Below are positions 54,058 through 55,142 of a stretch of 63,333 nucleotides of DNA, in pieces. Numbering within the stretch: the first letter of the stretch is position 1; the number at the start of each line of letters is the position of its first letter. Both the position numbers and the translations under genes were made by a program. The DNA lies in contig SVPR01000013.1 of the NCBI GenBank assembly GCA_015065785.1, positions 1 through 63,333 on the forward strand, written 5' to 3'. The notes beneath the pieces are model-generated. The model did no database searches. It saw only the letters and a program-made list of their open reading frames with translations, and was not told the DNA's origin. The stretch is from Oscillospiraceae bacterium (lineage in GTDB: Bacteria > Bacillota > Clostridia > Oscillospirales > Acutalibacteraceae).

Positions 54058-54086
54058 TTGACAAATTTTAATAAATGTGTTATTAT
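54058..54086 (+). promoter_or_regulatory. Promoter of the sigma factor / zinc-ribbon operon
   Basis: TTGACA (54058-54063), 17 nt, TATTAT (54081-54086), 41 bp before the sigma-factor start. Confidence 0.75.
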
Positions 54087-54126: not shown

Positions 54127-54687
54127 TTGAGCGAGCAGTTAACATCTTGTTACGATGACTTTACTGATGAAGAATTAGTAAAGCTTTCACAAGAGGGTAA
54201 CAGTCTTGCTTTAGATGCTTTAGCTCGTAGGTTTTTGTCACATAAGCCGAAGCTGTATTCTGCAGGCTATTTAGATGTTGACGATTTACTTCAGGAGGGG
54301 ATGATTAGCTTCCTCTCTGCAGTTAGAACCTACCAGAGCGAAAAAGGTGTTCCTTTTTCAGCCTATGCTACTGTTTGTATGAACAACGGAATTTCTTCTG
54401 CAGCGAGAAAAACCAAGAACGATTTTCAGATTGACAGAGATGTTGACCCCGTAACAGTCAATGCTGAAGCTAAAAATCCACTTGATACAATAGTAGATAG
54501 TGAAAATCTTTCTTCTGTTCTCACTCTTTGTGAAAATGTTCTTTCAGATGTAGAAAAATCAGTTGTTTACAGTCAGATGAGTGGCCTTTCTTATACAGAA
54601 ACTGCTGAAAAATTAGGTCTTACACCCAAGGCTGTTGATAATGCACTTCAACGCGCCAGAAAAAAGTTGAAAAACGTATTCGCATAA
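54127..54687 (+). CDS. Sigma-70 family RNA polymerase sigma factor, SigH-like
   Basis: A 186-residue sigma factor with region 2 ('YLDVDDLLQEGMISFLSAVRTYQSEKGVPFSAYATVCMNNGISSAARK') and region 4 ('LSDVEKSVVYSQMSGLSYTETAEKLGLTPKAVDNALQRARKKL'). The spacing and the short region 2-4 linker resemble Spo0H/SigH and related small factors rather than ECF. It is plausibly a sporulation-entry or stress sigma factor; the exact identity is uncertain. Starts with TTG at 54127 after GAGGTGG. The tRNA-like leader of the next gene begins 3 bp after its stop. Confidence 0.75.
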   Translation: MSEQLTSCYDDFTDEELVKLSQEGNSLALDALARRFLSHKPKLYSAGYLDVDDLLQEGMISFLSAVRTYQSEKGVPFSAYATVCMNNGISSAARKTKNDFQIDRDVDPVTVNAEAKNPLDTIVDSENLSSVLTLCENVLSDVEKSVVYSQMSGLSYTETAEKLGLTPKAVDNALQRARKKLKNVFA

Positions 54688-54689
54688 AT

Positions 54690-54782
54690 GTCCTTTTAGC
54701 TTAAAAAGGAGAGCGTTATTTTAAAGGTGACGGTGCAATTCCGTCGGAGGACACATCATTATAAAAAGCGAGGAAGCTAAAA
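54690..54782 (+). ncRNA. tRNA-like leader RNA with alternative start-site pairing
   Basis: Bases 54690-54753 fold like a tRNA: acceptor GTCCTTT (54690-54696) with GGAGGAC (54746-54752); T and A at positions 8 and 9; D-stem GCTT (54699-54702) with GAGC (54711-54714) and a loop ending GGA; T-arm GACGG-TGCAATT-CCGTC (54729-54745) placed exactly one base-pair stack before the acceptor. The anticodon arm is reduced to 13 nt including the variable bases (mini-hairpin TTA-TTT-TAA). No CCA follows. TTTTAGCTT (54694-54702) is perfectly complementary to AAGCTAAAA (54774-54782), which sits between the GAGGA ribosome site and the ATG, so a second, exclusive fold would hide the start. Confidence 0.6.
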
Positions 54783-55061
54783 ATGTACGAAGACAAAACT
54801 CTCATCTGCAAAGAATGTGGTAAAGAATTCACTTTCACAGCAGGCGAACAAGAATTCTATGCTGAAAAAGGATTTGTAAACGAACCACAACGTTGCAAAG
54901 AGTGCCGTGATGCTCGTAAACAAGCAATTAAGGGAGAACGCGAAAAGTTCAAAGCAACTTGTGCAGCTTGCGGTGGCGAAGCAGAGGTTCCATTCAAGCC
55001 ACGCGAAGACAGACCTGTTTATTGCAGTGCATGTTTTGCAAAAATGAAAGAAGAGGCATAA
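54783..55061 (+). CDS. Zinc-ribbon domain protein, unknown
   Basis: A 92-residue protein with four Cys-x2-Cys knuckles: 'CKECGKEFTF', 'CKECRDARKQ', 'CAACGGEAEVPF' and 'CSACFAKM'. They suit two zinc ribbons. The N-terminal half ('LICKECGKEFTFTAGEQEFYAEKGFVNEPQRCKECR') matches the widespread 'probable zinc-ribbon' family of Firmicutes, Chloroflexi and others, with no assigned function. Very basic-acidic mixed surface suggests nucleic-acid or ribosome contact (inference). Its leader contains a tRNA-like fold, and the GAGGA site lies 8 bp before the ATG. Confidence 0.82.
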   Translation: MYEDKTLICKECGKEFTFTAGEQEFYAEKGFVNEPQRCKECRDARKQAIKGEREKFKATCAACGGEAEVPFKPREDRPVYCSACFAKMKEEA

Positions 55062-55104: not shown

Positions 55105-55142
55105 TGCCTTGTCACGAAAGTGGCAAGGCATTTCTTTTTTCA
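55105..55142 (+). terminator. Terminator of the zinc-ribbon gene
   Basis: TGCCTTGTCAC with GTGGCAAGGCA (one G-U), GAAA tetraloop, then TTTCTTTTTT. Confidence 0.88.

Follow-up and report, generated by a model that had tools for sequence, protein, structure and literature searches.

A conserved tRNA-like element without anticodon and CCA between a SigH-like sigma gene and a zinc-protein gene in Clostridia

The closest described counterpart of the element reported here is yjdF, a tRNA-homologous RNA that, according to the available text of PMC9142559, lies in bacterial mRNA leaders shortly 5' of the Shine-Dalgarno sequence and has an acceptor able to reach 8 bp. The element shares both properties; it was found in the window, by which we mean the whole 63,333-nt stretch of Oscillospiraceae DNA that was analysed. 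As far as the available description of yjdF goes, the two differ at the acceptor/D-stem junction, which in nearly all copies of the element is only U8A9 but in yjdF is A-rich and binds azaaromatics, and in the off state, which in yjdF is formed by T-arm/Shine-Dalgarno pairing, whereas the element has no such conserved pairing. They also precede different genes, derive from different parents (tRNA-Lys for yjdF, probably tRNA-Thr for the element) and, unlike yjdF as described there, the element sits inside an apparent operon and has an RNase P-like 5' flank. All-family Rfam scans of the window gave no match to the yjdF family model.

A structured RNA shortly 5' of the same zinc gene also occurs in other Clostridia, where it is raiA RNA/ModT (RF03072). 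In contrast to the element, this RNA has another fold and, in the accessible portions of PMC11706538 and PMC11751092, is about 210 nt long, abundant and reported to act in trans; an Rfam scan of the window found no match to it. RNase P cleaves bacterial mRNAs and polycistronic operons (available text of PMC11143913 and PMC4919922), and the same processing is what we infer for the element. With tRNA-Thr(GGU) the element has in common the cloverleaf, the core contacts and, in other orders, a place after sigH and tRNA-Gly(CCC), but it lacks the 5-bp anticodon arm with 7-nt loop and the CCA, and ARAGORN misses 136 of its 139 copies. To our knowledge, no conserved tRNA-derived element with covariation in the tRNA core is among the listed mRNA targets of RNase P. 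In organelle transcripts, tRNA structures between genes mark the cuts, as proposed here for the element; those tRNAs are functional. We found no prior description of the element in the open-licence literature searched, nor, under related terms, in the available text of the large RNA-discovery paper PMC11109978, and came upon no study of the zinc protein.

The element and its flanking genes in the window

The element occupies positions 54690 to 54753 of the forward strand, on which all features given here lie. Upstream is a gene for a 186-aa SigH-like sigma-70 factor (54127–54687; Pfam Sigma70_r2 and r4_2), which ends in a TAA stop codon at 54685–54687 and whose best NCBIfam match is SigH at 92 bits, under that model's cut-off of 208. 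Base 1 of the element stands two bases past this stop codon. Downstream, 29 nt (54754–54782) separate the element from the ATG at 54783 of a gene for a 92-aa, two-domain treble-clef zinc protein (zf_Tbcl; 54783–55061; PF13451 at 85.9 bits, PF23477 at 69.5 bits; TIGR04272). Within this spacer, AAAG-C-GAGG at 54765–54773 may be read as a bulged Shine-Dalgarno sequence; among the spacers of the 139 distinct copies described below, AAGNGAGG occurs in 104 and GAGG in 133.

A promoter-like site, TTGACA-17-TATTAT, was located 5' of the sigma gene at 54058–54086 by a scan based on consensus only (11/12 with TG), which returned 6 such sites in the stretch against 3.3 ± 1.9 expected. Between 53950 and 55250, the terminator scan found a single hairpin, 3' of the zinc gene at 55105–55130, likewise by consensus only and near the chance level of 0.9 ± 1.0, and no terminator-like site between the two genes. 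With a promoter-like site ahead of the sigma gene and the sole terminator-like site behind the zinc gene, the two genes look like one transcript, a two-gene operon with the element between them.

The preliminary description had recorded a 7-bp acceptor, U8/A9, a D-arm with GG in its loop and a T-arm, all in tRNA order, together with a reduced anticodon arm, and each of these features proved to be present and in place. The 5' strand of the acceptor (54690–54696) pairs with 54746–54752 and is followed by U8A9 (54697–54698), by the D-arm GCTT-AAAAAGGA-GAGC (54699–54714, GG within the loop), by a 9-nt, 3-bp remnant of the anticodon arm, TTA-TTT-TAA (54716–54724), and by the T-arm GACGG-TGCAATT-CCGTC (54729–54745), whose loop is UGCAAUU. 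The four bases before the element, AAAU at 54686–54689, form a predicted RNase P site, with the predicted cut between 54689 and 54690.

In a 301-bp scan, the Rfam tRNA model (RF00005) matched the element at 37.7 bits, above its cut-off of 29 (E 1.2e-6), while our covariance model R1 gave 79.4 bits to this copy, which was itself among the sequences used to build R1. The element was not called by ARAGORN on the window, not reported by an Rfam scan of the whole window with default filters and not among the matches of a tRNA search of the window's own genome. Its fold energy of -18.1 kcal/mol compares with -12.8 ± 2.5 kcal/mol for shuffled sequences, 8 of 200 of which folded as stably. The element is more than a chance arrangement, and the observation of a tRNA-like element in the window is confirmed.

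Distribution and covariation of the tRNA fold

Of 60 genomes searched at the DNA level, among them that of the window, 53 gave a match. Among 29 fetched loci, R1 found the element in 26, 18 of which had gone into building the model; L005, a further locus, was cut at a contig end. The three loci without it were L022, L025 and L026, the first and last of these from the window's genus. Across the order, R1 matched at E 0.1 or better in 154 of 394 genomes, a figure that includes ordinary tRNAs. The 95 best-ranked matches, one of which is the window's own, stood just 5' of a zf_Tbcl zinc gene in 93 cases (all of the first 30 and 63 of the 65 after them), mostly within 45 nt and in a few cases at 70–90 nt, although at L034 only the first 15 residues of the zinc protein are on the contig. 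The two exceptions were L275, a tRNA-Arg, and L271, where a tRNA-like RNA lies within a phage-like region. Nine known loci below rank 95, which include 75- to 76-nt matches taken for tRNAs, were left out of this count. A second model, R2, was rejected as a gauge of spread, having matched 296 of 299 genomes of the phylum; the matches listed outside the window's genome were of ordinary tRNA length. No similar DNA was found in a phage collection.

Named carriers include Oscillospiraceae and Ruminococcaceae, which makes Oscillospirales the probable order; gut isolates among the carriers are Anaeromassilibacillus sp. An200 (L132) and Ruminococcus sp. Marseille-P6503 (L106). Within 80 named loci there were 29 clear matches and 51 loci without one, of which L068 had a weak match and one had just 27 nt of upstream sequence. 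Inspection by eye of 50 named loci without a clear match showed that in many the interval from sigH to the zinc gene was eroded or contained another hairpin, and that in some no sigH was visible. Because the element is absent from many sigH-zinc gene pairs, those at L022 and L026 included, we judge from its distribution that it is dispensable. It extends beyond the order to several families of the same class (L156, L160, L197, L201, L176, L181, L182, L186, L187, L189, L192 and L196), the weakest of these being L192, at 15.7 bits with R1.

Removal of 10 matches without a recognised zinc-gene start, 12 duplicates and 3 neighbouring tRNA-Gly genes from 164 model matches left 139 distinct copies; the 10 include L040, L055, L236 and L251, which do have a zinc gene about 70–90 nt downstream. 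A SigH-like gene precedes 129 of the 139, its stop codon a median of 19 nt before base 1, and the distance from the element to the start codon is 23–45 nt in all 139. The covariance-model search upstream of zinc-gene homologues that the preliminary description had suggested thus recovered the element, which is real and conserved.

Covariation was assessed in alignment A7, comprising 100 loci from a list of 110 that had itself been thinned by dissimilarity. In this alignment, which was fitted to the model and so favours structure somewhat, 92.5 % of cells were paired and two-sided changes occurred in 15 of the 19 cloverleaf pairs; cells with such changes numbered 162, against 48.9 ± 7.7 after shuffling and at most 35 with the partner slid. 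Covarying acceptor and T-stem pairs, which the preliminary description had expected of a genuine element, are among them, and the finding that it had said would count against one, leaders of homologues with no conserved tRNA-like pairing, was not observed. Bases of the tRNA core are nearly invariant (per 100 copies, U8 97, A9 99, A14 99, A21 96, U54 100 and A58 100), and the core contacts 8-14-21, 22-46, 19-56 and 54-58 are all represented.

Positions 22 and 46 covary (GG 77, AA 12, GA 10 and AG 1 of 100; Fisher 7e-9), the majority combination in 35 clusters being GG in 19, AA in 10 and GA in 6. Of the 82 copies in which neither position 19 nor position 56 is a gap, 52 have a strict Watson-Crick pair there, where shuffling gives 31.3 ± 3.6, and 19-56 was the only one of ten D-loop/T-loop position pairs tried that no shuffle reached; at the level of the 35 clusters the two positions pair in 17, have a gap in 10 and mismatch in 8. 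Relatedness inflates the p-values for both contacts, and we therefore place weight on the specificity of the positions. No covariation was seen in the copies for the Levitt pair 15-48 or for the pair 18-55.

What would be needed for decoding has been lost. Over the 139 copies the anticodon arm is anywhere between 5 and 42 nt long, and we did not find a 5-bp arm bearing a 7-nt loop and a readable anticodon; ARAGORN calls only three copies; and an encoded CCA, present in 38 of 38 real tRNAs of the window's genome, is missing from 138 of 139. Because the anticodon arm is eroded, the CCA is missing and ARAGORN calls so few copies, the element is, judged by these features, not a decoding tRNA.

Origin, RNase P model and alternatives

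In other orders, sigH is followed by tRNA-Gly(CCC) and tRNA-Thr(GGU) in L146, L150, L152 and L155 and by tRNA-Thr(GGU) alone in L148, L154, L157 and L158, while L156, L160, L201, L176 and L192 have the order sigH, tRNA-Gly, tRNA-like element, zinc gene (the tRNA-Gly having been identified by ARAGORN in L156 and L160, by Rfam in L201 and by eye in L176 and L192). Since these gene orders match, the element occupies the place of the tRNA-Thr gene, and it is probably a converted tRNA-Thr. Sequence likeness leaves this origin insecure: in a mixed set tRNA-Thr(GGU) was nearest for 131 of 151 elements, but 18 of the 75 tRNAs in that set were tRNA-Thr(GGU), and when only the 38 tRNAs of the window's genome were compared, 79 of 139 copies were closest to tRNA-Phe and 3 to tRNA-Thr(GGU). 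For this reason the proposed parentage rests on gene order. An intact tRNA-Thr(GGU) persists elsewhere in the window's genome (L279).

The sequence conserved just outside the fold is AUAU at -4 to -1, with A, U, A and U in 87, 83, 83 and 86 % of the 139 copies and in 87, 88, 78 and 82 % of a thinned set of 67; beyond it a weaker A/T bias extends to about -7 (T 54, A 46 and T 52 % at -7 to -5). The window matches at A-4, A-2 and U-1 and has A rather than U at -3. The same motif, in weaker form, precedes the real tRNA genes of the window's genome (A 66, U 63, A 53 and U 74 % of 38), so that the element carries the leader bases of host pre-tRNAs, while nine real tRNAs of other loci, too few to judge, fit it partly and have G at -2 in 56 %. 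According to the available text of PMC4919922, U(-1) is preferred by the RNase P of both Escherichia coli and Bacillus subtilis and A(-2) by that of B. subtilis, preferences for particular leader bases peak at -1 to -4, and the D-loop/T-loop contact matters. Within the accessible part of PMC9433436, B. subtilis RNase P favours U or A at -4, bases farther out counting little, and complex formation is reported to be inhibited when the leader pairs so as to lengthen the acceptor; both papers, as far as available, describe leader preferences that differ between species.

Two other readings of the flank were set aside. AUAU as part of a -10 promoter box was rejected by reasoning only, because the last position of the box would be G1 and transcription would start inside the acceptor, although the slight preference for T or A at -7 to -5 lends this reading some residual plausibility. 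Many copies show a three-codon frame that opens with NUG as start codon at -2 to +1 and ends with U8A9G10; it was judged a probable by-product of U-1 and G1 together with U8, A9 and G10 of the tRNA fold.

The resemblance of the conserved AUAU to a pre-tRNA leader is the main reason for the model that we favour, with a probability of roughly 0.55, in which a tRNA gene converted within an operon mRNA is cut by RNase P as a pre-tRNA between -1 and +1. Under this model, RNase P would take the degenerate tRNA between the sigma and zinc genes for a pre-tRNA, and the cut would separate the sigma message from the zinc-protein message, leaving the latter with a 5' end closed in the acceptor stem, which should shield it from 5' exonuclease. 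About one copy in three, the window's not among them, has a hairpin just before the cut that would cap the sigma message: an upstream hairpin with a score of 14 or more was found in 47 of 139 copies, 13 of these 47 showing the commonest gap to base 1, 6 nt, and the mean hairpin score was 10.6 against 6.3 in shuffles. The element itself would go back to an ancestral cluster of sigH, tRNA-Gly and tRNA-Thr, in which the tRNA-Thr(GGU) gene was converted where it stood. Several observations speak against the RNase P model. A 3' RCCA helps bacterial RNase P, and the element lacks one. In 114 of 139 copies, U-1 faces an A or G at position 73 with which it can pair, and in the window the pair of U-1 (54689) with A73 (54753) would extend the acceptor. 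The D-stem and variable-loop bases are stricter than cleavage requires, and the window's own copy departs from the motif at -3 and has no upstream hairpin that we could find.

The alternatives differ mainly in how they deal with this flank and with the fold. A decaying tRNA pseudogene without function would account for the lost anticodon and CCA and for the loss or erosion of the element in some relatives, but stems and core covary and AUAU is kept across 100 to 139 diverse copies, which refutes this reading; we give it almost no credence. Nearly as improbable is the switch put forward in the preliminary description, in which a strand of the acceptor and D-arm pairs with the start region and stops translation until the tRNA-like fold reopens it. 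The underlying 9-nt complementarity, between TTTTAGCTT at 54694–54702 and AAGCTAAAA at 54774–54782, is exact in the window, and two near relatives share it, but the expected conservation in homologues did not materialise: a run of 9 bp was found in 3 of 139 copies (L001–L003, all close relatives), with 7 bp in L004 and in five others through a different run, and a run of 9 or more arose somewhere between element and shuffled spacer in 64 of 5000 trials. Over the 139 copies, the first 18 nt of the element pair better with their own spacer than with shuffled ones (-7.37 versus -5.65 kcal/mol) but no better than with the real spacers of other loci (-7.43; p 0.70), and the excess over shuffles is therefore generic Shine-Dalgarno pairing. 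The whole element pairs slightly less well with its own spacer than with others' (-10.72 versus -11.05; p 0.014). The AAGC that is conserved ahead of GAGG is best taken as belonging to a Shine-Dalgarno sequence with one bulged base, AAAG-N-GAGG; the stretch was also seen by eye in homologues without the element, and since it is kept there, pairing of the D-stem GCUU with this AAGC was rejected. Thus a conserved tRNA-like leader before the zinc gene stands, while the start-codon switch, its pairing rare and its own-versus-swapped test null, is largely refuted as a property of the class. Among the agents that the preliminary description had proposed to stabilise the fold, RNase P best fits the AUAU flank.

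A minority possibility is that the folded element works in cis and uncleaved, as a tRNA mimic of the yjdF kind that raises translation of the zinc gene through contact with the ribosome or by binding a small ligand. The available text of PMC9142559 describes yjdF as a tRNA-Lys-like, translation-activating leader and reports that real tRNAs grafted 5' of a Shine-Dalgarno sequence raised expression 2- to 6.3-fold; the kept tRNA core and the narrow range of distances to the start codon would fit such a role. It would, however, leave the conserved AUAU outside the fold unexplained, no ligand pocket comparable to the A-rich junction of yjdF is apparent, and no conserved pairing of element and spacer was detected, the 3' half of the T-arm included (-4.43 with its own spacer versus -4.24 swapped; p 0.32). 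We consider it unlikely that the fold is instead an operator, bound by the zinc protein itself or by a tRNA-binding enzyme that would repress or protect the message in an autoregulatory manner. The product of the zinc gene is a two-domain treble-clef protein, and in L246, L265 and L266 the element accompanies the zinc gene with no SigH-like gene in the 545–603 bp upstream, but many genomes have the zinc gene in this same place and no element. Excision of the element as a small RNA that acts in trans, the mode of action reported for raiA RNA, strikes us as equally improbable: at 10 of the 37 loci scanned, raiA RNA (RF03072, 168–187 bits) lies within about 120 nt 5' of the zinc gene, but the element, unlike raiA RNA, is short, and with A at base 74 in 85 % of the thinned set and no CCA it has no clear 3' maturation signal.

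Returning to the RNase P model, we tentatively extend it to suggest that a working tRNA-Thr gene of the sigH-tRNA cluster became an mRNA element through which the expression of the zinc protein, in this reading a transition-phase protein, might be tied to tRNA-processing capacity, free RNase P at times of low tRNA synthesis favouring cleavage and a protected message. If true, yjdF would be joined by a second, independent class of mRNA leader derived from tRNA, RNase P would have a conserved natural target within an mRNA, and the loci would line up as a series that begins with a real tRNA gene, ends with the mRNA element and has an extant intermediate (sigH, tRNA-Gly, tRNA-Thr-like element, zinc gene). 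The element would tie the zinc protein to SigH, as other lineages tie it to raiA RNA and the raiA (hibernation-factor) gene.

Other zinc-gene leaders and tRNA-like RNAs

In other Clostridia, raiA RNA followed by the zinc gene was observed at L169, L173, L177, L178, L194, L195, L198, L204, L208 and L214. At L169, L177 and L194 the order is what we take to be a fliS-like gene, a further open reading frame, raiA RNA, the zinc gene and a raiA/HPF-like gene, a neighbourhood that suggests a link of the zinc protein to the stationary-phase ribosome. Many Oscillospiraceae without the element have, by eye, another short hairpin, GCGAUNUCAGC..GCUGANCGCAAUAUA, repeated between sigH and the zinc gene (L096, L099, L101, L103, L110, L113, L117, L122 and others). 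The zinc-gene leaders of L183 and L191 have a conserved sequence in common that is probably structured and has no Rfam match. One-domain zf_Tbcl paralogues of 54–69 aa at L188, L199, L200 and L209 likewise have a common leader, recognised by eye from TTTAATAT and a TCTCC/CCTC motif, and these leaders matched no Rfam family.

The tRNA-like RNA at L271 (579–651, reverse strand) is 73 nt long, has a long anticodon stem with a 4-nt loop and is not called by ARAGORN; it lies between what are presumably a Mom-like and a PAPS-reductase-like open reading frame. In the window's own genome, a second, damaged tRNA-Thr-like sequence lies beside tRNA-Thr(CGU) at L288 (144–209); it scores 25.5 bits, under the cut-off, and its anticodon-arm sequence is the same as that of tRNA-Thr(CGU).
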